DNA from: Vulcanimicrobium alpinum
Lineage (GTDB): Bacteria > Vulcanimicrobiota > Vulcanimicrobiia > Vulcanimicrobiales > Vulcanimicrobiaceae
Length of the DNA: 64,000 bases
Direction of reading: 5' to 3'
NCBI RefSeq assembly: GCF_027923555.1
Contig: NZ_AP025523.1
Span: forward strand, 1,178,001-1,242,000
Part shown: positions 5,555-19,636 of the stretch, one piece after another
Numbering within the stretch: position 1 is the first letter of the stretch
Layout of the letters: the number at the start of each line of letters is the position of its first letter
Position numbers and translations under genes: made by a program
Notes under the pieces: model-generated
What the model was told of the DNA's origin: nothing
Database searches by the model: none
Seen by the model: only the letters and a program-made list of their open reading frames with translations

Positions 5555-6241
5555 ATGGAGTTGCGTCTGCCGCCGCCGCCACGGCGCACGGCAGAAGATC
5601 GACCCCGGGTGTGGGCGCGCGCCGGCTCGCCGTGCGGACGGGGCGGCGACCGCGCGCTGGCGATCGACTGTCCCGACGAAAACCGCTTCGTCTTCGTCGC
5701 CGACGTCGCGGGGCGCGGGCGGGGCGCCGAACGGCCCGCCGACTTTCTCGCCGACGCGGCGCGCTTGCTGGTGTGCCAGGGGATGGGCGTCGCGACGGCG
5801 CTGGAGACGCTGAGTCTCGCGTTCGGCCACTATTTCGGCGGACGCTTCGCCTCGGCGTTCCTGGCGTGCATCTGCGACGACGGCACCGTCGCGTGGGCCT
5901 CGGCGGGACATCCCGACGCGTTGATCGTGCGCGCCGAGGGCGAACACGAGCATCTCGGGGCAAGCGGCCCGCTGTTGGGCGTCTTTCGCGATCCGTCGTA
6001 TCGCGAGTCGTCGTCGGCGCTCCACGACGGCGATCTGCTCGTGGTGACGACCGACGGGGTCTCCGACGCGCTGCTCGACGACGGCACCCGGATCGGTGAG
6101 CGCGGCGTCGCGCGCTGCGCGCACGCGGTCCGCGACGCCGCGCGCGATCCGGCCGGCGCGTTCGTGTACCACCTGTTCGGCGCGATGCGGGCGCGGCTCG
6201 ACGACGACTGGGCGGTGCTTGCCGCGCGCCGCGCGGGCTAG
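5555..6241 (+). CDS. PP2C/SpoIIE-family protein serine phosphatase
   Basis: A 228-residue stand-alone phosphatase domain with no sensor or membrane part. Metal-binding aspartates are seen in VADVAGRG (near residue 50), VTTDGVSDA and DDDWAVL, and the central ASAGHPDALI is typical of RsbU/SpoIIE enzymes. Such enzymes dephosphorylate STAS antagonists, and a STAS protein is encoded 3.7 kb upstream. The 120-bp gap to the divergent MmyB regulator holds the promoters of both. Since no input domain is fused, regulation would have to come through transcription or a partner protein. Confidence 0.8.
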   Translation: MELRLPPPPRRTAEDRPRVWARAGSPCGRGGDRALAIDCPDENRFVFVADVAGRGRGAERPADFLADAARLLVCQGMGVATALETLSLAFGHYFGGRFASAFLACICDDGTVAWASAGHPDALIVRAEGEHEHLGASGPLLGVFRDPSYRESSSALHDGDLLVVTTDGVSDALLDDGTRIGERGVARCAHAVRDAARDPAGAFVYHLFGAMRARLDDDWAVLAARRAG

Positions 6242-6759
6242 CGCCGGGCGGCGCGGCGCCGCGGCCCCGCGCCGGGACCGCGTTCGCGATGCGCCCGCAC
6301 GTTGTCGCGCACGCGGTGCAGCAGGTCGCGCAGCATCTCGATCTCGTCTGACGAAAACCCGTCGACGGCGATCTCGTTGATCTCGACCGCGTAGCCGAGC
6401 AGCACGTCGCGCAGGCGGCGCCCGCGCAATGAGAGGTGCAGGTGAATCTTGCGGCGATCGGCGGTGCTGCGGCGGCGCTCGACCAGACCGCGTGCTTCCA
6501 TCGCGTCGATCGCGGCGTTCGTCGAGTTCTCGAAGAGTCCGATGCGCTCGCTGAGCTCGCGCTGCGTCATCCCGTCGGCGTCCCACAGTTCGCGCATGAT
6601 GAAGTATTGCCCGAGCGTGACGTCGTGGCGTTCGATCCGTTCCTGGAGGTCGCGCATCATCGCCCGCGACGATTCGCGCAGCAGGTAGCCGACGCTGCGG
6701 TTGCGGTCCAGGTGAAAGCCGCGCGTCTGTTCCAGCCGGGTATCGCTCGCTCGTCTCAT
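6238..6759 (-). CDS. MarR family transcriptional regulator
   Basis: A winged-helix dimeric repressor of about 173 residues. It shows the family layout: a helical start (VGYLLRESSRAMMRDL), TLGQYFIMRELWDADGMTQ, the recognition helix ENSTNAAIDAMEARGLVER and the wing RRSTADRRKIHLHLS. ATG at 6759 is preferred over the far ATG at 6846, because a minus-strand -10 (TATACT, 6839-6834) and a palindrome lie at 6834-6862 and would otherwise fall inside the start. It is divergent from the importer operon, and the palindrome between them suggests it represses that operon and itself, with a pathway substrate as inducer (inference). Confidence 0.85.
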   Translation of the reverse strand: MRRASDTRLEQTRGFHLDRNRSVGYLLRESSRAMMRDLQERIERHDVTLGQYFIMRELWDADGMTQRELSERIGLFENSTNAAIDAMEARGLVERRRSTADRRKIHLHLSLRGRRLRDVLLGYAVEINEIAVDGFSSDEIEMLRDLLHRVRDNVRAHRERGPGAGPRRRAARR

Positions 6760-6833: not shown

Positions 6834-6862
6834 AGTATAGTTCCATGCTAGAACGGTTCTAG
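6834..6862. promoter_or_regulatory. Putative MarR operator palindrome with overlapping -10 box
   Basis: The sequence ctagaacggttctag (6848-6862) is a perfect inverted repeat with 7-base arms and a central G, the size and form typical of MarR operators. On the minus strand TATACT lies at 6839-6834, a consensus -10, with its -35 position falling inside the palindrome. Binding there would block marR transcription and would also sit upstream of the ABC transporter operon. Confidence 0.65.
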
Positions 6863-6948
6863 TATCGAAGTAAATGAACGGTGACGACGATGCGCGTGAA
6901 AACGACGATGGACCGGGGTGTGGGCGGCCGCTGCGCGGCCGGGGCGGC

Positions 6949-7788
6949 ATGACGACGGCCGTCCCGGCCGCGGAGCAGGCGGCGCAGGCGCGCGAAGGCG
7001 CGGCGCTGGTGCTCGACCGCATCGCCAAGACCTATCGCGGTGCGGGCGGCGGCGTCGCCGCGCTGGGACCGGTCGACCTGGAGGTGTGGCGCGGCGAGTT
7101 CGTGTCGATCGTCGGCCCGAGCGGTTGCGGAAAGTCGACGCTGTTTTCGATCGTCGGCGGGCTTGCGGAGGAGTACGACGGCCGGGTGCTGATCGACGGC
7201 CGCGCGGTTCGCGGCCCGCAGCGCGAGATCGGGATGGTGTTTCAGGAAGAGTCGACGTTTCCGTGGCTGAGCGCGCTGGAGAACGTCGCGTTTCCGCTGC
7301 GGGTCGCGGGCGTGGCGCGCGCCGAACGCGAGACGCGCGCACGGCGCATGCTGCGGCTGGTCGGCCTCGAGGGATTCGAGGGCGCGCGCCCGGCGAAACT
7401 GTCGGGCGGGATGCGCCAGCGCACGGCGTTGGCGCGCACGCTGATCGCGCAGCCGCGCATTCTGCTGATGGACGAGCCGTTCGCCGCGCTCGACGAGCAG
7501 ACGCGGCTCCTGCTCGGCGATCGTCTGCTCGACGTGTGGCGCGAACTCGAACAGACGACATTGCTGATCACGCACAGCATCGCCGAAGCGGTGCAGCTCT
7601 CGGACCGCGTCGTCGTGATGACGTTCCGGCCCGGCCGCGTCAAGCGCATCGTCAAAATCGATCTGCCGCGCCCGCGCACCTCCGCGATCTTGGGGAGCGA
7701 GCGCTTCGGGCACTTCGTCAGCCTGATCTGGAGCGAACTGCGCGACGAAGCGCTGCGCGGACTCGACGCGCGGGAGGAACGCTGCTGA
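6949..7788 (+). CDS. ABC transporter ATP-binding protein, NitT/TauT (SsuB/TauB) type
   Basis: A 279-residue nucleotide-binding subunit. Walker A is GPSGCGKST, the Q-loop region is MVFQEESTFPW, the signature is LSGGMRQRTALARTL, Walker B is LLMDEPFAALDE and the switch histidine is in LLITHSIAEA. The EEST-FPW and switch-region wording matches importers of nitrate, taurine, alkanesulfonates and aromatic acids. ATG at 6949 starts where family members do; an in-frame ATG at 6874 would add a Gly/Asp-rich leader immediately after the palindrome. It overlaps the binding-protein gene by one base, as first gene of the operon. Confidence 0.9.
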   Translation: MTTAVPAAEQAAQAREGAALVLDRIAKTYRGAGGGVAALGPVDLEVWRGEFVSIVGPSGCGKSTLFSIVGGLAEEYDGRVLIDGRAVRGPQREIGMVFQEESTFPWLSALENVAFPLRVAGVARAERETRARRMLRLVGLEGFEGARPAKLSGGMRQRTALARTLIAQPRILLMDEPFAALDEQTRLLLGDRLLDVWRELEQTTLLITHSIAEAVQLSDRVVVMTFRPGRVKRIVKIDLPRPRTSAILGSERFGHFVSLIWSELRDEALRGLDAREERC

Positions 7789-8750
7789 TGGACCGTTCGC
7801 TTTTCATCGCGTCGCTGGCCGCCGCGACGGCGCCGCAGATCGTGCCGCGCCGAACGGAGGAACTCCAGCCGCTGCGTGCCGCGATCGGACAGCGCGGGGC
7901 GTGGGACACGATGATCGTGCCGCAGGGGGTCGAGGAGGGGATTTTCCGCCGCGCCGGGCTCGACGTCCAGCCGACGTTCACCGCCGGGGGATCGGACACG
8001 CTGCAGGCGGTGACGACCGGCAGCGCCGACGTCGGCATCGGCGTCGGGACGACCGGCGCGATCGGCGCGTTCGCGAAAGGCGCGCCGTTGCGCATCATCA
8101 GCGGCGAGTTCACCGGCGCGAGCGACATCTTTTTCTACGTCCGCGCCGACAGCAGCATCCGATCGATGGCGCAGATGCAGGGCCGCACCCTCGGTTTTTC
8201 GCGCCCCGGATCGTCGTCGTTCATCGCCGCGCATCTCCTCGCGACCCGCGCGAACGTCGTGCCGTCGTTCGTGCCGTCGGGCGAGACGGCGGCGACGTTC
8301 ACTCAGGTGATGTCGGGTCAGCTCGATGCGGGCTGGGCCGTGCCGCCGCTGGTGCTCGACGCGCTGCGCGACGGCAAGGTGCGCATCCTGGCGCGCGCAT
8401 CCGAACTCCCGGACCTGCGGCATCAGACGATCCGCGTCAACGTCGCCAACGCGACGTACGCGCGCGACCGTCACGATCTCCTCGCGCGCTTCGTCGGGGC
8501 ATACCGCGAGACGGTCGCGTGGATGTATCGCGACCGTCGCGCCGCGCTCGCGCGCTACGCGCGCTACAACGGGATCGCGCCGGCGATCGCCGCCGACGCG
8601 CTGGGATTCTATCCGCAAGCGGCGGTCGCGACGCTCTCGATCGCCGGCTTCCGCCGCAGCCTCGACGACGCGCTCGCTTATAAGAACATCACCAAGCCGC
8701 TGGACGCCGATCAGGTGCGCGACCTCTTCGACGTCGTCTACACGCGATGA
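7788..8750 (+). CDS. ABC transporter substrate-binding protein, NMT1/TauA-like
   Basis: A 320-residue periplasmic-type binding protein. It contains GIFRRAGLDVQ, TGSADVGIGVGTTG, LGFSRPGSSS and GQLDAGWAVPP, the usual order of the two lobes in SsuA/TauA/THI5-like proteins. The N-terminus (MDRSLFIASLAAATAPQIV) is a short hydrophobic segment consistent with a signal peptide, without a lipobox cysteine. It is translationally coupled to the ATPase upstream and the permease downstream (ATGA overlap). The ligand is unknown; this fold accepts sulfonates, pyrimidine precursors, nitrate and aromatic acids. Confidence 0.85.
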   Translation: MDRSLFIASLAAATAPQIVPRRTEELQPLRAAIGQRGAWDTMIVPQGVEEGIFRRAGLDVQPTFTAGGSDTLQAVTTGSADVGIGVGTTGAIGAFAKGAPLRIISGEFTGASDIFFYVRADSSIRSMAQMQGRTLGFSRPGSSSFIAAHLLATRANVVPSFVPSGETAATFTQVMSGQLDAGWAVPPLVLDALRDGKVRILARASELPDLRHQTIRVNVANATYARDRHDLLARFVGAYRETVAWMYRDRRAALARYARYNGIAPAIAADALGFYPQAAVATLSIAGFRRSLDDALAYKNITKPLDADQVRDLFDVVYTR

Positions 8751-9496
8751 ACCCGCGCGGCACGGCCGCCGCGCTGCCGGCGCTCGCGATCCTCGTCGCG
8801 GCGCTCGCCGCGCTCGCCGCGGCGTCGGCGGCGGGCGCGCTCCCGGCGACGGTCGTTCCGTCGCCCGCGGCCGTCGCGCGCGCGTTTGCGGTGCTGTTCG
8901 CCGACGGCGACATTGTCGTGCCGTTCGCGACGACGGTCGGGCTCGCGACGGCGTCGACCGCCTTGGCGGCGGCGTTCGGACTTCCGCTGGGGCTCCTGCT
9001 GGCACGCCGGGCCTCCCTCGGCAGAGCGTACGAGGCCTGGCTCGGCGCGGCGTTCGCAGCGCCGGTCGCGCTGCTCTACCCGCTCTTCCTCGTCGTCACC
9101 GGACGTTCGCTGCGCACCGTTGTCGTGATGGCGGCGCTCGCCGCGGCGATCCCGATCGTCATCAAAACGCGCGAAGCGTTCGCGGGAGTCCCGCGCGTCT
9201 TTACCGACGTCGCCTCGAGCTTCCGACTGAACGCGCGGACGCGGTTCGCGCTGGTCGAACTGCCGGCCGCCGTCCCGGTGCTGTTCGACGGCCTGCGGCT
9301 CGGATTGATCTACGCGCTGGTCAACGTCATCGGGGTCGAATACCTGGTCGATCTGGGCGGGCTGGGGCGCGTCGTCTCCGATCGCTATGCGGTCTACGAT
9401 ATCCCCGAGACGTACGCCGCGATCGTGCTGGTGCTGATCGCGAGTTTCGCGTTGCTGTACGCGCTCGATCGGCTGCAGCGGGCGGTGCACGAATGA
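8747..9496 (+). CDS. ABC transporter permease, SsuC/TauC type (first)
   Basis: A 249-residue inner-membrane subunit with six predicted hydrophobic helices. The cytoplasmic coupling loop typical of the family is visible (SSFRLNARTRFALVELPAAVP, about residues 160-180, equivalent to the EAA motif). It overlaps its neighbours by four bases on each side. Because the next gene is also a permease, the importer is likely a heterodimeric channel rather than the homodimer common in taurine systems. Confidence 0.85.
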   Translation: MNPRGTAAALPALAILVAALAALAAASAAGALPATVVPSPAAVARAFAVLFADGDIVVPFATTVGLATASTALAAAFGLPLGLLLARRASLGRAYEAWLGAAFAAPVALLYPLFLVVTGRSLRTVVVMAALAAAIPIVIKTREAFAGVPRVFTDVASSFRLNARTRFALVELPAAVPVLFDGLRLGLIYALVNVIGVEYLVDLGGLGRVVSDRYAVYDIPETYAAIVLVLIASFALLYALDRLQRAVHE

Positions 9497-10224
9497 GCGC
9501 GGTGCTGCGCATCCGGCTCGTCACCGCCGCCGCCGTGCTGACGGCGTACGAAGCCGCCGCGCGCAGCGGGCTGTTCTACCAGGGCGTATTTCCGCCGCTC
9601 GGCGCGGTCGGGCGCGCGCTCGCGGCAACGCTGGCGGCGCCGCAGTTCTACGCGAACCTCGAAGTGACCGCGACGGAGATCGCGGCCGGGTTCGCGATCG
9701 GCGCGGTGCTCGGCGTCCCCGCCGGCGTCGCGCTCGGCGCCGGCCCGCGGCTGCGCGCGGCGTTCGCGCCGTACGTCGACGCGTTCGCGACGGCGCCGAA
9801 AGTGATCTGGCTGCCGATCGCGATGCTGGCGCTCGGCGCCGGGCCGGCGTCGAAGGCGGCGCTCGCCGCGGCCGCCGCGTTCTTCCCGATCGTCATCGCG
9901 GTCGCGGCCGGGACGCGCCACGTTCCGGCGGTGTACGTGCGTGTCGCGCGCGTCGCGCACGCGTCGGCCTGGCAGCGCCTGCGCTGGGTCTACCTGCCGG
10001 CGCTGCGCGTTCCGATCGTCACCGGTTTGCGGTTGGGCTTCGGCCTCGCGGTCACGATCGTGCTGCTCGCCGAGATCAAGATCTCCGACCGCGGCGCCGG
10101 CTTCCTCGTCATCGACGCGTACAACCATTTCCGCATCGCAGAGATGGATGCGCTGCTGATCGTGCTCTTCGCGCTCGCCGTGGCTGCGAACGGCGCGATG
10201 GGACGCCTGGCGGAGGAGACGTGA
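9493..10224 (+). CDS. ABC transporter permease, SsuC/TauC type (second)
   Basis: A 243-residue membrane subunit similar in plan to the upstream permease but clearly diverged. It has an N-terminal helix, then TATEIAAGFAIGAVLGVP, FATAPKVIWLPIAMLALG and the EAA-like loop HASAWQRLRWVYLPALRVP (about residues 155-175). The pairing of two different permeases with one ATPase gene points to an ATPase homodimer below a permease heterodimer. ATG at 9493 overlaps the previous stop. Confidence 0.85.
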   Translation: MSAVLRIRLVTAAAVLTAYEAAARSGLFYQGVFPPLGAVGRALAATLAAPQFYANLEVTATEIAAGFAIGAVLGVPAGVALGAGPRLRAAFAPYVDAFATAPKVIWLPIAMLALGAGPASKAALAAAAAFFPIVIAVAAGTRHVPAVYVRVARVAHASAWQRLRWVYLPALRVPIVTGLRLGFGLAVTIVLLAEIKISDRGAGFLVIDAYNHFRIAEMDALLIVLFALAVAANGAMGRLAEET

Positions 10225-11132
10225 GCTGGGAGCGCGGCGCCGGCCGCCCGGCTACGGTCGGCGTGCTTGGTGCGGGCCGGATGGGTCTGCCGATCGCGCG
10301 TCAGCTCGTGGGCGCCGGGTTCCATACGATCGCGTACCGCCGCGGCGCGGGCGACGAACTTCGCGCCGCCGGGGCGCGCGTCGCGGGTTCGGTCGCGGAA
10401 CTCTGCGTCGGTGCCGAAGTCGTGATCTCGCTGCTCCCCTCCGCCGACGCGGTGCACGCCGTACTGCCCGAACTCGTGCGGGGCTTGCGTCCCGGCTCGG
10501 TGCTCGTCGACATGGCGACGCTCGGCCTCGCGGTGAAGAAGCAGGTACGAGACGCGCTCGAGCCGCGCGGCGTCGCGATGCTCGATTGCCCGATCAGCGG
10601 CGGCCCGATGATGATCCCGCGCCGCGAGAACGTCGTCCTCGGCAGCGGCGAGCCCGACGCATTCGAGCACGCGCGACCGCCGCTCGAGTCGTTCTCCGCG
10701 AACGTGCTCTATCTGGGCGTCTTCGGCACGGGATCGCGCGTGAAATTCATCGCGCAGCAGCTCGTCGCCGTGCACAACCTGGCCGCCGCCGAGGCCCTGC
10801 GCTACGCGATGCGCAGCGGGATCGACGCAAATACGGTGATCGCCGCGATCGTCCCGAGCATCGCGTCGTCGCGTTTCTTCGAACAGCGCGCGCCGATGAT
10901 GGTCGAGCGGCGGTTCTCGCCGGCGCTCGGACCGATCGGGATGCTCGCGAAAGATCTGCCTCCGGTGCTCGACGATGCCGACGAGATCGGCGTCGCAATG
11001 CCGCTGCTGCGGACCGCGCAGCGTTACTACGCCGCGGCGCTCGAGGCCGGGATGGGCGAGCTCGACGTCGCCGCGATGATCGACGCGCTCGAACTCGACG
11101 GTGCTGCGCTGCAGCACGAGGTGAACCGATGA
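10221..11132 (+). CDS. NAD(P)-dependent beta-hydroxyacid dehydrogenase (HIBADH family)
   Basis: A 303-residue oxidoreductase. The N-terminal Rossmann motif GVLGAGRMGLPIARQL is followed by the substrate-binding signature LDCPISGGPMMIP (near residue 117) and the catalytic-lysine region GTGSRVKFIAQQLVAVHN (near residue 175), where the asparagine of family members is also present. Known relatives oxidise 3-hydroxyisobutyrate or reduce tartronate semialdehyde, and some act on gamma-hydroxybutyrate or imines. GTG at 10221 overlaps the permease stop. Its place in the operon suggests it acts on the imported compound or an intermediate. Confidence 0.85.
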   Translation: MSWERGAGRPATVGVLGAGRMGLPIARQLVGAGFHTIAYRRGAGDELRAAGARVAGSVAELCVGAEVVISLLPSADAVHAVLPELVRGLRPGSVLVDMATLGLAVKKQVRDALEPRGVAMLDCPISGGPMMIPRRENVVLGSGEPDAFEHARPPLESFSANVLYLGVFGTGSRVKFIAQQLVAVHNLAAAEALRYAMRSGIDANTVIAAIVPSIASSRFFEQRAPMMVERRFSPALGPIGMLAKDLPPVLDDADEIGVAMPLLRTAQRYYAAALEAGMGELDVAAMIDALELDGAALQHEVNR

Positions 11133-11620
11133 TCGACAACATCGCACAGCGCGGGTGCCGAAGCGGCTGCTGCGTCTCCATGGTCGGCGACGTCTACGTG
11201 TTTCTCGCGACCGGCGCGGAGACGAACGGCGCCTATTTTCTGATGGACGGGATCGTCCCGCCCGGCGGCGGCCCGCCCCTGCACGTGCACTCGCGCGAGG
11301 ACGAAGCGTTCTACGTCGCCGCCGGCGAGTTCGAAATCGAGTACGGCGAGCGCACGCAGCGGCTCGGGCCGACCGGATTCGTGCATTGCCGGCGCGGCGT
11401 CGCGCACCGCTTCCGCAACGTCGGCACGCAGCCCGGACGCTTGCTGCAGATGTTCACGCCGGCGGGGATCGAGCAGTTTTTCTACGCCGCCGGGACCGAG
11501 GTCGCCGGCGCGGATGCCGAGCCGCTGCCGGTGACGCCGGCCGACATCGAGCGGCTGCTGCTCGCCGCCGCCGAACACGGGATCGAGATCCGTCTGCCTG
11601 AGGGCGATCATCATGGGTGA
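11129..11620 (+). CDS. Cupin-domain protein
   Basis: A 163-residue single-domain cupin. Metal ligands are visible in PPLHVHSREDEAFYV (two His and one Glu of cupin motif 1) and GVAHRFRNVG (the His of motif 2). Single-domain cupins include dioxygenases, isomerases and sensor proteins. In this operon, between a hydroxyacid dehydrogenase and an aldehyde dehydrogenase, a small-molecule enzyme is likelier than a regulator. The reaction cannot be told from the sequence. Confidence 0.8.
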   Translation: MIDNIAQRGCRSGCCVSMVGDVYVFLATGAETNGAYFLMDGIVPPGGGPPLHVHSREDEAFYVAAGEFEIEYGERTQRLGPTGFVHCRRGVAHRFRNVGTQPGRLLQMFTPAGIEQFFYAAGTEVAGADAEPLPVTPADIERLLLAAAEHGIEIRLPEGDHHG

Positions 11621-12530
11621 CACCAGGATGACCGTCGCGATCGTCGCGCCCGCTTTCGTGTACATGCCGTTGTGGGCGGCCGCGTCGGAAGGGCTGTTTC
11701 GCGATGAAGGTCTCGACGTCACGATCGAGGTCGCGGGCGGGACGACGCACGGCGTCACGGAGCGTCTGCTCGACGGCCGCGCGCAGATCGGGATCGGGAC
11801 CCCCGAGGGCGTGCTGCTCGACGGAAGCGGCGATCTCGTCATCATCGCGGGCCATGCGAACCGCGCCGCGCTCTCGCTCGTCGCGCAGCCGCGTTTTCGC
11901 AACGTTGGCGAACTGCGCGGCGCGCGCTTCGGCGTCGCCTCGCTCACCGAAGGGACGGCGTACATCCTGCGCGAGATGCTGGCTCAGCGCGGGCTGCACG
12001 ACGGCGACTACGCGCTGCTCGAAGTCGGAACGCATCCGGTGCGCTGGGAAGCGCTCAAAGCGGGGACGCTCGACGCGGCGCTGCAGCTCGTGCCGTTCAA
12101 CTACATGGCCGAGGACGCCGGCTTCGCGATACTCGCGCAGGCCTACGACGACGTCCCCGACTACGCGTTCACCACGGTGAACGTGCGGCGCTCCTGGGCC
12201 GGCGCGCAGCCCGCGATCGTCGAGGCGTTCTTGCGCGCGCTGCTGCGCGGCACGGCCTGGATCTACGACCATCCCGCCGCGAGCGTCCGCGTCGCGGCCT
12301 CCGCCTCCGGCGTTCCGGAAGCGTACGTCGAGCGCGCGGTGCGCGAGTTCGTCGACCGCCGCGTCGTCGCGCGCGATCTGTCGCTGAGCCGCGCCGGGCT
12401 CGCCAAGGTGGAAGAGACGCTCGCTCATGCCGGCGCGACGCGCGCGGCCGACGCGGATCGCGCGATCGACCTGCGCGCGCTCGAACGCGCCCGCGCTTCC
12501 CTCGCCCAACTTTCCCGGAGCACTTCATGA
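11613..12530 (+). CDS. Second NMT1/THI5-like substrate-binding protein
   Basis: A 305-residue protein with the periplasmic-binding-protein layout: FRDEGLDVTIEVAGG, LLDGRAQIGIGTPEG, LRGARFGVASLTEGT and TLDAALQLVPFNYMAEDAG. The start lacks a clear signal peptide (MGDTRMTVAIVAPAFVYMPL). It may therefore be cytosolic, as in THI5-like enzymes or ligand sensors, or may be exported by another route. It is unlike the first binding protein of the operon in sequence, so it is not a recent duplicate. Alternatives are a second specificity for the importer or an enzyme of the pathway. Confidence 0.75.
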   Translation: MGDTRMTVAIVAPAFVYMPLWAAASEGLFRDEGLDVTIEVAGGTTHGVTERLLDGRAQIGIGTPEGVLLDGSGDLVIIAGHANRAALSLVAQPRFRNVGELRGARFGVASLTEGTAYILREMLAQRGLHDGDYALLEVGTHPVRWEALKAGTLDAALQLVPFNYMAEDAGFAILAQAYDDVPDYAFTTVNVRRSWAGAQPAIVEAFLRALLRGTAWIYDHPAASVRVAASASGVPEAYVERAVREFVDRRVVARDLSLSRAGLAKVEETLAHAGATRAADADRAIDLRALERARASLAQLSRSTS

Positions 12531-14014
12531 GTACGACCATCGCCATGTCGACGCAGGACGTGCACGCGCGCGCCTTCGCCGAACCGTTCGCCATGCTGAT
12601 CGACGGCGCGCTGTGCGGTGCCGAGGACGGCGCGACATTCGCCACCGTCAACCCCTCGACCGAAGCCGCGCTCGCCGACGTCCCGCTCGCGGGCCGCGAG
12701 CAGGTCGCGCGCGCGGTCGACGCGGCGCAGCGCGCATCGGCGGCGTGGCGGGGCGCCTCGCTTCCGGAGCGGATCGCCGCGGTCACCCGCACGATCGAGA
12801 TCCTGCGCGAACATGCCGAAGAACTGAGCTATCTCGACGCGCTCGACGGCGGACTCGTCCTCGCCGAGGCACGCAAGGACGTCGCGCTCGCGGGCGCCTG
12901 GATCGGCTACATGCTCGGCGCGGCGATGGAGGTGAAGGGGCACACGCTCCCGTTCGCCGACCGCGGCTGGCTGCTGACAAAGCGCGAGCCGTACGGCGTC
13001 GTCGCGCGGATCGGCGCGTTCAACCATCCGCTGCTGTTCACCGCCGGGAAGATCGCCGCGCCGCTGCTCATGGGGAACGCGGTCATCGTCAAGACGCCCG
13101 AACAGGCGCCGCTCTCGTCGCTGCTCTTCGGCCGACTCGTCCGGGACGTCTTTCCGCCGGGGGTGCTGCAGATTCTCAGCGGCGACGGCCCGACGACCGG
13201 CGACGCGCTCGTACGGCACCCGCGCGTCAAACGCATTGCGCTGATCGGCAGCGTCGAGACGGCGATGCGCATCCAGCGAAGCGCCGCCGAGACCGCGGTC
13301 AAACACGTCACGCTCGAACTCGGCGGGAAGAACGCGATGATCGTGTTCCCCGACGCCGACCTCGACCGCGCGGTCGAAGGCGCGACGTCGAGCACGAACA
13401 TGCAGCAGAGCGCCGGCCAATCGTGCGGTTCGATCACGCGCCTCTTTCTCCACGAGTCGGTCCACGACGCGTTCGTCGAGCGCCTGGCGGCGCGCGTCGC
13501 GCAGATCGCGGTCGGCGATCCGCTCGCGCCCGGGACGCAGATGGGTCCGCTGGTGTCGGAGGCGCAGTACCGGCGCGTACTGGGGTACATCGACGCGGGG
13601 CGCTCGGAGGGCGCGTCGGTGGTGACCGGCGGCGTCGCGCCGGCGTGGCGCGAGAAGGGCTTCTTTGTCGAGCCCACCGTCTTCGGCGGCGTCACGCCGG
13701 CGATGCGCATCGCGCGCGAAGAGATCTTCGGGCCGGTCCTCTCGGTTCTGCGCTGGTCGGACCGCGAGGCGATGCTCGCGCAGGCCAACGCCGTCGAACT
13801 CGGGCTCACCGGATCGGTGTGGACGCGCGATCTCGCGACCGCGATGGAGTGCGCCGATGCGCTCGACAGCGGCTACGTGTGGGTCAACGGGGCGGCGCGC
13901 CACTTCATCGGCGCGCCGTTCGGCGGCCACAAGAACAGCGGCGTCGACGTCGAGGAGAGCATCGAGGAACTCTACAGCTACACGCAGTCCAAGACGATCA
14001 GTCTGTGCGCATGA
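12527..14014 (+). CDS. NAD(P)-dependent aldehyde dehydrogenase
   Basis: A 495-residue ALDH-superfamily enzyme that oxidises an aldehyde to the acid. Motifs are VARIGAFNHPLLFT, the cofactor lysine in VIVKTPEQAPLS, the general base in LELGGKNA and the catalytic cysteine in GQSCGS, with EEIFGPVLS near the C-terminus. Length is standard. It follows the second binding protein with an overlap and is coupled to the ThDP enzyme, consistent with decarboxylation to an aldehyde followed by oxidation. Confidence 0.9.
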   Translation: MSTTIAMSTQDVHARAFAEPFAMLIDGALCGAEDGATFATVNPSTEAALADVPLAGREQVARAVDAAQRASAAWRGASLPERIAAVTRTIEILREHAEELSYLDALDGGLVLAEARKDVALAGAWIGYMLGAAMEVKGHTLPFADRGWLLTKREPYGVVARIGAFNHPLLFTAGKIAAPLLMGNAVIVKTPEQAPLSSLLFGRLVRDVFPPGVLQILSGDGPTTGDALVRHPRVKRIALIGSVETAMRIQRSAAETAVKHVTLELGGKNAMIVFPDADLDRAVEGATSSTNMQQSAGQSCGSITRLFLHESVHDAFVERLAARVAQIAVGDPLAPGTQMGPLVSEAQYRRVLGYIDAGRSEGASVVTGGVAPAWREKGFFVEPTVFGGVTPAMRIAREEIFGPVLSVLRWSDREAMLAQANAVELGLTGSVWTRDLATAMECADALDSGYVWVNGAARHFIGAPFGGHKNSGVDVEESIEELYSYTQSKTISLCA

Positions 14015-15759
14015 GCGTCGCGGCGCACTGGGCCAGCGATGCGATCGCGCTCGCGCTGCGCGACGCGCTGGGCGTCGACTACGTCGCGCTCAACCCCGGG
14101 GCGAGCTTCCGCGGCCTGCACGACAGCCTGGTGCATCTCGGCGGTCCGCCGATGCTGGTGTGCCTGCACGAAGAGCATGCCGTCGCGATCGCGCACGGGT
14201 ACGCGAAGGTCGCCGAACGGCCGATGGCGGCGATCCTGCACAGCAACGTCGGGCTGATGCACGGTGCGATGGCGATCTACAACGCCTGGTGCGATCGCGC
14301 GCCGGTCGTGATCGTCGGCGCGACGGGCCCGGTCGACGCGGCGCGGCGGCGGCCGTGGATCGACTGGATCCACACCGCCGCCGATCAGGCCGCGCTGGTC
14401 CGTCCGTTCACGAAGTGGGACGATCAGCCGGCGTCGCTGCGCGCCGCACTCGACGCGCTCGCGCGCGCGGACGCCGTCGCGCGCACCGAACCGTGCGGAC
14501 CGGTCTACGTCTGTCTCGACGCGGCGCTGCAGGAGGCCCCGATCGACGCGATGCCGGCGCTCCCGCAGATGCGCCGCCATCGCGCGCCGGCGCGCGCCGT
14601 CCCCGCCGCCGCCGAGATCGCGCGGATCGTCGAGGTGCTCGACGCGGCGCAGCGTCCGGTCATCCTCGTCGGGCGGGTTTCGCGCGATCGCGCCGCGTGG
14701 GACGCGCGCGTCGCGCTTGCCGAACGGCTCGGCGCGCGCGTCGTCACCGATCTCAAACTCGCCGCAGGCTTTCCCACCGCGCACCCGCTCCACGGCGTCC
14801 CCGGCTACTTTCTCGACGACGAGGCGAAGCGGGCGATCCGCGACGCCGACGCGATCGTGAGCCTCGACGCGGTCGATCTCGCCGGGATCCTCGCGCAGGC
14901 GTACGGCGACCGGATCCCCGCCGCGACCGTCGTCTCGATCTCGCTCGATCGCTACGCGCTGCGCGGCTGGACGATGGATGCGGGCGGCCTCGCGACGATC
15001 GACGTCGACGTCGCCGCTCACCCCGATGCCGTCGTCCCGCTCGTCCTCGCCGCGCTCGAGCCGCGCCCCCGCACGCCGTTCGCGGCGGCGCACGCGGTAC
15101 CATTGCCCGCAGCGCCGTTGCATGGGCCGATCCGTCTTCCCGGTCTTGCCCGCGCGCTCGCCGGCGCACTCGGAAACCGGCCGTACACGCTGACGCGCGT
15201 CCCGCTCGGGTGGGGCGGCGATCTGATACCGTTCGCGGATCCGCTCGCCTATCTCGGATACGACGGTGGCGCGGGGGTCGGTTCCGGTCCCGGGATGGCC
15301 GTCGGCGCCGCGCTCGCATTGCGCGGGACGGGACGCGTCCCGGTCGCCGTGCTCGGCGACGGCGACTTTCTGATGGGGTGCACCGCGCTGTGGACGGCCG
15401 TGGCCAACGCGATTCCGCTGCTCGTGGTCGTCGCCGACAATCGCGCATATTACAACGACGTCGTCCATCAGGAACGCATCGCGCGCGAACGCGGGCGTCC
15501 GCTCGAAAACCGCTGGACGGGCCAGCGCATCGACGATCCGCCGGTCGATCTCGTCGCGATGGCGCGCGCGCAGGGCGCGCACACCTTCGGGCCGGTCGCC
15601 GATGCGGCGGATCTCCCCGGCGTGCTCGCGCAGGCCGTCGAAGCGACCGCCGCCGGCGCGGTGTGCTTCGTCGCCGTAGCAGTCGAAGCGGAGTACGATG
15701 CGGCGATGACCGCAGCGCTTTCGCGGGACGCCGGAGCGAACGGAGCGCTGCGCGGCTGA
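14011..15759 (+). CDS. Thiamine diphosphate-dependent decarboxylase/synthase-like enzyme
   Basis: A 582-residue ThDP enzyme. The N-terminal Pyr domain has the catalytic glutamate in CLHEEHAVAIAHGYAK. A central Rossmann-like domain spans about residues 190-340, and the C-terminal PP domain carries the ThDP/Mg motif GDGDFLMG...VADNRAYYND. Relatives include acetolactate synthase, benzoylformate decarboxylase and phosphonopyruvate decarboxylase. With an aldehyde dehydrogenase directly upstream, a 2-oxoacid decarboxylase role is a fair inference. It is the last gene of the MarR-linked run. Confidence 0.85.
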   Translation: MSVAAHWASDAIALALRDALGVDYVALNPGASFRGLHDSLVHLGGPPMLVCLHEEHAVAIAHGYAKVAERPMAAILHSNVGLMHGAMAIYNAWCDRAPVVIVGATGPVDAARRRPWIDWIHTAADQAALVRPFTKWDDQPASLRAALDALARADAVARTEPCGPVYVCLDAALQEAPIDAMPALPQMRRHRAPARAVPAAAEIARIVEVLDAAQRPVILVGRVSRDRAAWDARVALAERLGARVVTDLKLAAGFPTAHPLHGVPGYFLDDEAKRAIRDADAIVSLDAVDLAGILAQAYGDRIPAATVVSISLDRYALRGWTMDAGGLATIDVDVAAHPDAVVPLVLAALEPRPRTPFAAAHAVPLPAAPLHGPIRLPGLARALAGALGNRPYTLTRVPLGWGGDLIPFADPLAYLGYDGGAGVGSGPGMAVGAALALRGTGRVPVAVLGDGDFLMGCTALWTAVANAIPLLVVVADNRAYYNDVVHQERIARERGRPLENRWTGQRIDDPPVDLVAMARAQGAHTFGPVADAADLPGVLAQAVEATAAGAVCFVAVAVEAEYDAAMTAALSRDAGANGALRG

Positions 15760-17270: not shown

Positions 17271-17888
17271 GTGCGGCGGGCGGCGCGGCGGATCTCGGCG
17301 ATGCGCAGAAAAAGCGTCGCGCTGACGTTCGACGACGGCCCGTCCGGCTGGGGCTCGACGGACCGCATCCTGGCCCTGCTCGACGGCTTCGGGATCAAGG
17401 CGACGTTCTTCGTGGTCGGCGGGATGATCGACAGCAACCCGCAGCTCGCGCAGCGGGAAGCGAATGTCGGGCATCTGGTCGAGAACCACAGCATGACGCA
17501 CCCCGAGTTCTCGACGCTCGGACGGGACGCGATGATCGCCGAACTCGACGGCACGACGCAGCGCATCGTCGACCTCGGCGTCGACAGCCCGCAGTTTTTC
17601 CGGCCGCCGTACGGCGACCGCGACGGATCGACGCTGACCGATCTGCTTGACGAGCGCGGTCTCACGCCGATGCTGTGGACGATCGATTCACGGGACTGGG
17701 AGATCCCCGACGCCGATACCGTGCATCAGAACGTCCTGCGCGATCTGCGCGCGGCGTGGAGTGCCGGCGAGATGACGAACGTCGTACTCTTTCACGACAT
17801 CCAGCCGCACACGCCGGACGTCATCGAAGCGCTCGTCCCGGATCTCGTCGACGAAGGCTGCGTCTTCGTGCGGGTCGACGCGGTTTAG
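17271..17888 (+). CDS. Polysaccharide deacetylase (NodB domain)
   Basis: A carbohydrate esterase 4 domain, about 205 residues. Metal and catalytic residues are visible in TFDDGP, NHSMTHPEFS, RPPYGD, the DSRDWEIP tryptophan and VLFHDI. Such enzymes remove acetyl groups from chitooligomers, peptidoglycan or exopolysaccharide. The start is uncertain: GTG 17271 and ATG 17301 are in frame. ATG 17207 has a better ribosome site (ggagag) but is in another frame, so a one-base indel near 17270-17300 is possible. No signal peptide is evident with the present start. The stop overlaps the convergent gene. Confidence 0.85.
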   Translation: MRRAARRISAMRRKSVALTFDDGPSGWGSTDRILALLDGFGIKATFFVVGGMIDSNPQLAQREANVGHLVENHSMTHPEFSTLGRDAMIAELDGTTQRIVDLGVDSPQFFRPPYGDRDGSTLTDLLDERGLTPMLWTIDSRDWEIPDADTVHQNVLRDLRAAWSAGEMTNVVLFHDIQPHTPDVIEALVPDLVDEGCVFVRVDAV

Positions 17889-19636
17889 GGCGCCGGTGCG
17901 AATGCCGGCACGACGGTCACGCCTCCGTACACCGCCTGCGTCCCCGCGGCGACTTGCAGCTTGACGCGCGCAGGAACGGCGCCGTCGCGGCCAGGGGTGC
18001 CGAGTGCGAACAGGTACTCCCATTGACCGTTCCCGCTGTGCTCGGCGCGCCCGAAGTCGGTCCAGGTGTCGGTGGTCTGCAGGCGGATCGTCGCTCCGCG
18101 CGACGACGCGCGAACCCATGCGCCCGCGCCGTAACGCGTGCGTCCGTCGAGCGAGAGATCGGGGCGTCCGGCCCACGTCTCCCCGGTGCTCGCGTCGATG
18201 CGCGCGAGGACGGGCTGCGGCGCGAAGCGGAACGTGTTCGCGTTCGCATCCTCGTCGGGATCGGCGGCGTCGAGCGTGCCGTCGCCGTCGATCGTCCAGA
18301 ACGCGGGAAGGTCGCCGTTCCAGTCGGAGAAATCGGCGTTGGGGATCGCGAGCGGCTGCACGGGTGCGGCCGTCAGTGCGCGCAGCACGTTGGAGGCGAT
18401 GGTGTCGACCACGTTCGTGCCGCCGGCGCTCAAGCCGCCTGCCCAGTTGACGGTGCCGGCGGTGAAGACGACGCCGCGGCGCTGGTACCAGCCCAGCGAT
18501 GCCCCGCCGCCTTGACCGTGCGGCGCCCAGTCTCGCAGATCGGCCCGTGCGACGACGCGGAAATCCGGCGGCGTCCCGTCGCCGACCGCATCGGTTTCGT
18601 AGCCCAGGATCGCGTCGTCGACGCTGGTGCCGGCGCCGAACATGTCGCCGTTGCGCGCGCCGGTTCCGGCGAGGGTCCAATCGCCGGCGTCCGCGACGGT
18701 GTAGCCGCGGTAGCGCTGCGCGGGGACGGTCGGGTCGATCCACCAGCCCGCACCGTACTTGTAGCTCACGCCGGTGAGGCGGCTCTCGGGCCGGTTCACG
18801 GGCGGTTCGTACCAGCGCACCGTGACGCGCCGCGGATCGTCGCGCGAGGGATCGGGCGGGTTGCCTTCGGTCTCTTTGTAGCATGTCATGATGCGGGCGC
18901 CGTCGAGGGCGAGACGGATCTGCCAGTAGCACGTGTTCGCGCTGAAGAACGCGACGTTGCCGCCTGCGGCGACGAACGCTTCGACGGCGTCGCGCATCTC
19001 GAGCGACCAGTACTCGTCGTGCCCGATGCTCACCAGCAGGCGATACGGCGCAAGCAGCTGCGGATCGCGGTGGAGATCGAGGCTCGAGCAGAGATCGTAC
19101 GCGATGCCGCGCGACTCGAGCCACTGCAGAAACGGGACCTGATAGCGCTCGAAGAGCGCGAGATCGTCGTAGGGCCGGTCGAAGGAAATGTGCGGTGCGT
19201 GCGGCGCGGTGTAGAGACTGCGGCCGCCCCAGGCGGTGTAGGCCTGCGCCGTCGCGTCGCTCATCTTCACGAGGATGCGCGACTGCGCGCCGGGGTTCGC
19301 CGCGCGGACAAAAAACGGGATCCACGTCTCCGCACCGCCGGAGCTGACGTGGGCGAGATAGTAGCCGCTGCGCCAGTCGGCCGGGACCGTGATGCGCAGG
19401 CCGTCCGCCGCAGGCCAGTTGCAGCCCGCCACCGCGAGCGCCGCGTCGTCCTGCACGCCGTCCGGGACGAACGCGTCGCCGGTTGTGGCGAGCATCGGTT
19501 CGTCGGTACGGCCGCGGCGCACGACCTGCATCGCGACGTGCGCGAACGCAGCGCTCGATGCGCGCACGTGCAGATCCAGCGTGTCGCCCGGCGCGACCGA
19601 GGTGGCCGACGCGTACCCTTCGAGCGCTGCCGCCAT
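17885..19636 (-). CDS. N,N-dimethylformamidase beta-subunit-like protein
   Basis: A 583-residue protein resembling the C-terminal two-thirds of the large subunit of N,N-dimethylformamidase. It has an Ig-like N-terminal part (GDTLDLHVRASS, DWRSGYYLAHVSS), the central domain with SIGHDEYWS, AFFSANTCYWQ and GTVNWAGGL, and an extra C-terminal domain from about residue 445 (NADFSDWNGDLPAFWTIDG) that looks like a beta-sandwich carbohydrate- or ligand-binding module. No small alpha subunit is adjacent and no signal peptide is seen, so amidase activity is not established. It may be a secreted or surface beta-rich protein reached by another route. Confidence 0.7.
   Translation of the reverse strand: MAAALEGYASATSVAPGDTLDLHVRASSAAFAHVAMQVVRRGRTDEPMLATTGDAFVPDGVQDDAALAVAGCNWPAADGLRITVPADWRSGYYLAHVSSGGAETWIPFFVRAANPGAQSRILVKMSDATAQAYTAWGGRSLYTAPHAPHISFDRPYDDLALFERYQVPFLQWLESRGIAYDLCSSLDLHRDPQLLAPYRLLVSIGHDEYWSLEMRDAVEAFVAAGGNVAFFSANTCYWQIRLALDGARIMTCYKETEGNPPDPSRDDPRRVTVRWYEPPVNRPESRLTGVSYKYGAGWWIDPTVPAQRYRGYTVADAGDWTLAGTGARNGDMFGAGTSVDDAILGYETDAVGDGTPPDFRVVARADLRDWAPHGQGGGASLGWYQRRGVVFTAGTVNWAGGLSAGGTNVVDTIASNVLRALTAAPVQPLAIPNADFSDWNGDLPAFWTIDGDGTLDAADPDEDANANTFRFAPQPVLARIDASTGETWAGRPDLSLDGRTRYGAGAWVRASSRGATIRLQTTDTWTDFGRAEHSGNGQWEYLFALGTPGRDGAVPARVKLQVAAGTQAVYGGVTVVPAFAPAP

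Follow-up and report, generated by a model that had tools for sequence, protein, structure and literature searches.

Which acid may Vulcanimicrobium alpinum take up and trim with the MarR-linked operon considered here? The operon lies at 6949–15759 on the plus strand of the stretch analysed, a window of 64 kb from a host genome of 3,508,363 bases. A preliminary description of this stretch, read from its letters alone, had proposed import of an unnamed acid, oxidation or a ring or side-chain change by a cupin, decarboxylation of a 2-oxoacid, and aldehyde oxidation. Our analysis supports this scheme apart from the cupin chemistry. The choice of acid narrows to an aromatic one of the 2-oxo or 2-hydroxy type, since phthalate genes of both the aerobic and the anaerobic kind lie beside relatives of the operon's core. 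We read the locus, from sequence comparisons, as a MarR-controlled operon for the uptake and side-chain trimming of an aromatic acid, with a probability of ca 0.58.

Nine intact genes follow each other on the same strand behind a perfect palindrome and a divergent MarR gene, all of them where the preliminary description had placed them, and every operon protein is assigned by Pfam far above cut-off. The first four genes encode an importer, and a dehydrogenase, a cupin, a second binding protein, an aldehyde dehydrogenase (ALDH) and a thiamine diphosphate (ThDP)-dependent enzyme follow. From the first to the ninth gene, the successive overlaps are 1, 4, 4, 4, 4, 8, 4 and 4 bases, which makes a single transcript the natural reading.

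The ThDP-dependent enzyme

The last gene (14011–15759, +; Pfam TPP_enzyme N, M and C) encodes a ThDP-dependent decarboxylase with the fold of the arylglyoxylate (benzoylformate) decarboxylases. The top PDB matches of its AlphaFold model (pLDDT 84.6) are benzoylformate and 4-hydroxybenzoylformate decarboxylases, with a TM score of 0.77 at ca 23% identity. Apart from 4q9d, a putative ThDP enzyme, and a ThDP-dependent HKA synthase at rank 50, the 50 matches listed are all these decarboxylases or engineered variants of them. The catalytic Glu58, His81, the GDG motif and Asn481 are conserved across the family alignment (the numbering is that of the translated frame P0010, which starts four residues ahead of the Met). 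Glu58 and His81, which correspond to Glu47 and His70 of benzoylformate decarboxylase (BFDC), are kept in every aligned row that has residues at these positions. The fold and the relatives thus support the 2-oxoacid decarboxylation proposed earlier, and more specifically the decarboxylation of an arylglyoxylate-type 2-oxo acid in a BFDC-like manner.

It should be pointed out that the residue equivalent to His281 of BFDC is a Leu, and we therefore say that the enzyme works like a BFDC, not that it is one. The NCBIfam benzoylformate decarboxylase model gives 137 bits and does not reach its cut-off of 493. The ThDP relatives also share a near-invariant run that is specific to the family, RRPWIDWIHT (117–126); it is a speculation that this run recognises a second carboxylate.

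Phthalate genes beside the relatives

With the ThDP protein as query, a scan of 84,980 genomes yielded 22 loci, mostly from Alpha- and Betaproteobacteria. The scan detects only relatives that share short exact peptides with the query, and the 22 loci are thus a sample, in which some are near-duplicates (three from Maritimibacter and two Bosea-like). The proteobacterial relatives are 46–58% identical to the window protein and recur with the same ALDH (44–51% identity to the window protein), MarR (29–47%) and NitT/TauT importer (ATPase 58–63%). The ThDP gene is accompanied by ALDH, MarR and/or the orthologous importer in Bosea, Rhizobiales, Ancylobacter, Burkholderiaceae, a betaproteobacterium, Agrobacterium and Rhizobium, and relatives are found on plasmid records of Acidovorax carolinensis, Limimaricola, Novosphingobium KA1, Cupriavidus, Agrobacterium and Rhizobium.

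Phthalate genes lie within about 10 kb of the ThDP gene at no fewer than 12 of the 22 loci. Genes counted as such are those for PDO-type Rieske oxygenases and their reductases, Gfo/Idh dehydrogenases, DHP-decarboxylase-like proteins and phthaloyl-CoA decarboxylase. At the Bosea-type locus L031, the oxygenase matches the solved phthalate dioxygenase entries 7fjl, 7v25 and 7v28 over its length (E=1e-186), and the dehydrogenase matches 4,5-dihydroxyphthalate dehydrogenase 7wzd (E=8e-143). In the phthalate dioxygenase PDO_KF1, the residues in contact with phthalate are S182, R207 and R244, and dioxygenation is directed by I256 (PMC12445078); we infer that 7fjl is this enzyme, because its chain numbering and residues fit that description. 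All four residues are kept in the nine ThDP-linked PDO-type oxygenases tested.

Two betaproteobacterial loci carry anaerobic phthalate genes instead. The UbiD protein of L046 is a phthaloyl-CoA decarboxylase (8pmk, 1126 bits), 88.8% identical to a plasmid protein of Aromatoleum aromaticum EbN1, and it is adjoined by two CoA transferases and UbiX; together these constitute the anaerobic phthalate set (review PMC13040137). At L045, a partial UbiD gene and two CoA transferase genes lie beside the ThDP gene and the importer.

There are some 100 DHP-decarboxylase-like genes in 7.3 billion plasmid bases (ca 1 per 73 Mb), which gives a chance expectation of ca 0.006 across the 22 loci, in a control that ignores the clustering of catabolic genes. 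As these genes are so rare in plasmids, their clustering with the ThDP loci is, by this count, far above chance. Two chemically unrelated routes both enter at phthalate, and the ThDP enzyme and the ALDH would make phthalate from 2-carboxyphenylglyoxylate (phthalonate). Phthalonate is therefore probably the substrate, and phthalate the product, of the relatives' module. The rhodobacterial phthalate/ThDP clusters also contain a conserved 148-aa protein without Pfam or NCBIfam match, encoded right after the DHP-decarboxylase-like gene (L029 7882–8328, L054 10548–10991).

The same evidence bears on a plain mandelate-type pathway, in which unsubstituted or hydroxylated benzoylformate would be converted to benzoate or hydroxybenzoate. 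The best solved ThDP relatives are indeed the enzymes of such pathways, and the protocatechuate 4,5-cleavage of the host (see below) would accept a product derived from 4-hydroxybenzoate. However, the identity is only ca 23%, His281 is missing, the RRPWIDWIHT motif is specific to this family, and the neighbours across taxa are phthalate genes, not mandelate or benzoate genes. We thus consider this option rather unlikely.

Distribution of the operon

Among 149 genomes of the phylum, a strong ThDP relative is present in only two others, and in none of ten congeners. This patchy distribution suggests that the operon was acquired horizontally, while the base composition gives no separate signal of such an event. 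A genome of the same family (G092) has the importer alone, in the same order and with no adjacent ThDP gene (ATPase 67%, binding protein 48%, permeases 51% and 53% identical). The closest plan to that of the window is found on the Agrobacterium plasmid pAt2 (L084), where a divergent MarR gene is followed by class II aldolase, ALDH, ThDP enzyme, ATPase, two permeases and two binding proteins. The gene-order comparison thus finds the module recurring in proteobacteria with the same ALDH, MarR and importer. The earlier remark that no operon with exactly this order has been described holds for the literature searched, although near-identical modules do exist in sequence, as on pAt2.

Some further observations were made at these loci. 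In unrelated bacteria, genes of the arylmalonate-decarboxylase/maleate-isomerase family recur that adjoin the ThDP gene or lie close to it (L023 9930–10670, L026 4690–5394, L051 5736–6473, L039 3675–5163). Two genomes of the host's family, G091 and G092 (e.g. loci L023–L028 and L095), each contain 12 or more PDO-like Rieske oxygenases. They also have several ThDP paralogues, most of them with between one and five orphan binding proteins of the NMT1 type next to them. This looks like a large aromatic-acid repertoire.

Regulator and importer

The MarR-family regulator (6238–6759, −, longest frame from 6846; Pfam MarR, E=7e-14) is divergent from the operon, and the inverted repeat lies in between, which is consistent with the MarR control proposed before. 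The repeat is the perfect 15-bp palindrome CTAGAACGGTTCTAG at 6848–6862. There is one exact copy of it in the 3.5-Mb genome, with no further site at one mismatch and one at two mismatches. The shape alone is not rare, as the window contains 27 perfect palindromes of the 7-1-7 form; what makes it a candidate operator is its location between divergent genes and its AT-rich composition in DNA of 70% GC. The palindrome is not conserved at the relatives' loci, where other repeats are present. The regulator is 53% identical to the MarR protein of the host's own dioxygenase-like locus L063. In the Bosea-type loci L031, L032, L034 and L044, a conserved non-coding element, AAATGTTTGAGAG..CAAGCGAGATAATCTTGGACCT, is situated upstream of the importer between the MarR and ATPase genes, and it is possibly a regulator site there. 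On its other side, the MarR gene is convergent with a SpoIIE-type phosphatase gene (5555–6241, +), with a four-base overlap at the MarR end.

All four component types of the importer are present: a NitT/TauT-type ATPase (6949–7788, +, with an alternative in-frame ATG at 6874; Pfam ABC_tran), the NMT1/THI5-like binding protein SBP1 (7788–8750, +; Pfam NMT1, 1e-15), permease 1 (8747–9496, +) and permease 2 (9493–10224, +), both Pfam BPD_transp_1. The full importer of the preliminary description is thus there, but the NitT/TauT subfamily models of NCBIfam are matched only below their curated cut-offs. The ATPase is 54–67% identical to those of related modules, SBP1 36–48% to the binding proteins of ThDP-linked importers and of G092, permease 1 40–53% to ThDP-linked permeases, and permease 2 38–53% to related importer permeases. 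SBP1 is present in only two of the 149 phylum genomes, and at E<=1e-20 its plasmid matches are only two Agrobacterium records and one from Rhizobium. Its short hydrophobic N-terminus could be a signal peptide.

The second binding protein, SBP2 (11613–12530, +; NMT1/THI5-like, Pfam NMT1, 7e-19), is also there as described, but as an ordinary periplasmic receptor it is unsupported. No signal peptide is found in its stop-to-stop frame, there is no room for one upstream, and the protein starts at the mature domain. Its relatives at L031, L044 and L024 (37–38% identity) have N-terminal extensions, and SBP2 is therefore probably cytosolic in the host. The predicted structure (pLDDT 52) is too poor to use.

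A taurine-type importer and a weak Xsc match could also point to sulfonate catabolism. The NCBIfam models for taurine and aliphatic-sulfonate importers and for sulfoacetaldehyde acetyltransferase (Xsc) do give matches, but these are far below the curated cut-offs (Xsc 83 vs 676 bits, SsuA 66 vs 163.5). The operon contains no phosphotransacetylase or sulfite exporter, and its relatives adjoin aromatic genes. Sulfonate use is therefore disfavoured, and we regard it as very improbable.

Dehydrogenases and cupin

The ALDH (12527–14014, +; Pfam Aldedh, 1e-146) has readable catalytic Cys and Glu motifs, and the aldehyde oxidation step is supported. Its nearest solved structures are betaine aldehyde dehydrogenases. 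The dehydrogenase at 10221–11132 (+, GTG start; Pfam NAD_binding_2 and NAD_binding_11) is an NAD(P) enzyme of the beta-hydroxyacid-dehydrogenase family (HIBADH/LtnD-like) that keeps the catalytic Lys and the SGG motif. Its best NCBIfam match is L-threonate dehydrogenase (3e-48, below cut-off), and it is also near the tartronate semialdehyde reductase models.

These assignments could be taken to indicate use of an aliphatic 2-oxo or 3-hydroxy acid, of the threonate or tartronate kind, with the phthalate association in relatives being a matter of enzyme reuse. The nearest models of the dehydrogenase and the nearest structures of the ALDH would fit this. The ThDP fold matches, however, are nearly all arylglyoxylate decarboxylases, and in clusters of aromatic genes the ThDP enzyme is accompanied by orthologues of the importer, so that an aliphatic substrate appears improbable.

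The single-domain cupin (11129–11620, +; Pfam Cupin_2, 5e-16) has an intact HxH...E...H metal-ligand motif and a weak match to quercetin dioxygenase. Its gene is absent beside the core module in most relatives, which leaves the suggested ring or side-chain chemistry of the cupin unsupported, and in eight phylum genomes no plausibly linked window gene adjoins it. The dehydrogenase, the cupin and the signal-less SBP2 are local additions to the core module. Downstream of the operon, at 17885–19636 (−), lies a gene for an N,N-dimethylformamidase beta-subunit-like protein (DMFA2_C, E=9e-83).

Ring-processing genes elsewhere in the host

A separate operon of the host (L063) encodes a PDO-like Rieske oxygenase, a class II aldolase and a DHP-decarboxylase-like protein (46%). 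Among curated models, the aldolase best matches 3,4-dihydroxyphthalate decarboxylase, at a score below cut-off. This operon is divergent from a branched-chain-type ABC importer with the MarR gene related to that of the window. Relatives of its class II aldolase gene are located within the Agrobacterium ThDP operon (52%), beside the Cupriavidus one (60%) and near the G091 one (45%). Since the gene lies in or beside ThDP operons of relatives, the two host operons are linked indirectly. An intact Gfo gene in the host encodes a 49% homologue of 4,5-dihydroxyphthalate dehydrogenase. Beside it is a second, phthalate-dioxygenase-like Rieske copy that is frameshifted and decaying (L079 7344–8395; G000:C1 ~3001343–3002394). 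The host also has a complete protocatechuate 4,5-cleavage operon (L080 5285–11196; G000:C1 ~3116284–3122195), in which LigA, LigB, LigK and the oxalomesaconate tautomerase are all above curated cut-offs.

The intact L063 Rieske oxygenase keeps S182, R244 and I256, but not the equivalent of R207. For this reason, its substrate is probably related to phthalate and not phthalate itself.

A narrower form of our reading is that the host operon, too, converts phthalonate or 2-carboxymandelate to phthalate. The neighbours of the core module in proteobacteria, which use phthalate by an aerobic and an unrelated anaerobic route, argue for this, as do the two homologues in the genome (49% and 46%) and the congener G124, which keeps Gfo, Pht5-like and Rieske genes in one operon. 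The missing R207, the frameshift in the second Rieske copy and the position of the window ThDP gene outside the phthalate-linked clade (see below) argue in the opposite direction. We consider this narrower form possible but doubtful: an aromatic acid is a likely substrate in the host, while phthalonate itself is uncertain.

Proposed pathway

The sequence itself displays the genes and their families, the catalytic motifs, the recurring core with its phthalate neighbours, and the downstream genes elsewhere in the host. In the pathway that we infer, from the order of steps to the substrate class, the effector and the link between the operons, the ABC importer would take up an aryl acid of the 2-hydroxy or 2-oxo type, which probably bears a carboxylate on the ring, ortho to its side chain. 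The HIBADH-type dehydrogenase would oxidise the 2-hydroxy form to the arylglyoxylate. Flavin alpha-hydroxyacid oxidase genes close to the ThDP gene at L051 and L085 lend support to this first oxidation, which the LtnD-like enzyme could carry out in the host. The ThDP enzyme would then decarboxylate the arylglyoxylate to the aromatic aldehyde, and the ALDH would oxidise this to the aromatic acid (a benzoate). The acid would next enter the separate dioxygenase-like operon, with its Rieske oxygenase, DHP-decarboxylase-like protein and class II aldolase-type decarboxylase. Ring hydroxylation and decarboxylation would there lead to protocatechuate and on to the 4,5-cleavage operon. MarR would be relieved by the substrate or by an acid of the pathway.

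Several observations weigh against the proposed aromatic side-chain trimming in the host. In the ThDP enzyme, in addition to the Leu at the His281 position, the equivalent of Ser26 of BFDC is an Ala (the family has Ser or Ala). In the maximum-likelihood tree, the phthalate-linked ThDP proteins form a clade with those of Acidovorax, Cupriavidus and Deferrisomatales (90/86), and the window protein is outside it, in a weakly supported group of paralogues from the same family (84/92) that have no clear adjoining phthalate genes. Function transfer is for this reason safer for the reaction type than for the substrate. The HIBADH and the cupin are not found in the module elsewhere. The ring-processing genes are not within the window operon, which has none of the dioxygenase, Pht4-type dehydrogenase and Pht5-type decarboxylase genes present in the proteobacterial relatives, and the host Rieske oxygenase is without the R207 equivalent, so that the operon's product may be something other than phthalate. 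No natural source of phthalonate is established either; a naphthoquinone (lawsone) was considered as one, but one published degradation route for it runs via salicylate instead.

Relation to known systems

The benzoylformate and 4-hydroxybenzoylformate decarboxylases of the mandelate pathway (1bfd, 6qsi, 7orx) share with the window enzyme the fold, the ThDP motifs, the catalytic Glu and His70 equivalents, and the formation of an aldehyde that passes to an ALDH. The window system differs in the His281 to Leu exchange, the RRPWIDWIHT run and the dedicated ABC importer, and its relatives' neighbours are phthalate and not benzoate genes. Bosea and Ancylobacter have orthologues of the PDO_KF1-type aerobic phthalate 4,5-dioxygenase genes (dioxygenase, reductase, Pht4, Pht5) directly linked to the full ThDP/ALDH/MarR/importer core; in Maritimibacter, Marivibrio and others, the link is to ThDP/ALDH/MarR. 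The host versions, however, are diverged and ca 1.4–1.8 Mb away from the window operon, and the aerobic pathway as described starts at phthalate, without a ThDP step. At L046, the ThDP/ALDH/importer module has next to it genes like those of the anaerobic cluster of Aromatoleum and Thauera (succinyl-CoA:phthalate CoA-transferase, phthaloyl-CoA decarboxylase, UbiX). The window operon has none of them, and the EbN1 plasmid cluster has no ThDP gene within 14 kb.

The operon of Agrobacterium tumefaciens cl001 pAt2 resembles that of the window in its divergent MarR gene and in a single run of genes for ALDH, ThDP enzyme, ATPase, both permeases and a pair of binding proteins. It differs in that it begins with the class II aldolase-type gene, ends near a phenol-hydroxylase-type monooxygenase and has no HIBADH or cupin; both of its binding proteins are SBP1-like. 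ABC importers for phthalate are known, namely PatDABC of Rhodococcus and OphFGH of Burkholderia (PMC10973024), and the window importer would resemble them in the ABC-type uptake of an aromatic dicarboxylate.

In the literature searched, which leaves most subscription journals outside, there is no description of a ThDP/ALDH/importer module adjoining phthalate pathways, and nothing relevant on phthalonate, carboxybenzoylformate or ThDP with phthalate operons. The parts are of known kinds, and their combination next to phthalate pathways is new to that literature.

Conclusion

Phthalate pathways are usually discussed as a response to plasticisers made by man, and little is known of the natural compounds that they serve. 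We tentatively propose, as the less probable side of the matter, that a horizontally spread module of importer, arylglyoxylate-type ThDP decarboxylase, ALDH and MarR feeds phthalate made from 2-carboxyphenylglyoxylate or 2-carboxymandelate into both the aerobic and the anaerobic pathways, the window operon being a diverged branch of it in a distant phylum. If this is true, natural ortho-carboxylated arylglyoxylates, and not plasticisers, would be an original source of phthalate for both pathways. A conserved uptake and side-chain-trimming module beside both routes would point to a concrete and testable natural precursor, and it would give a function to many genes now annotated only as 'thiamine pyrophosphate-binding protein' or 'ABC transporter substrate-binding protein'.

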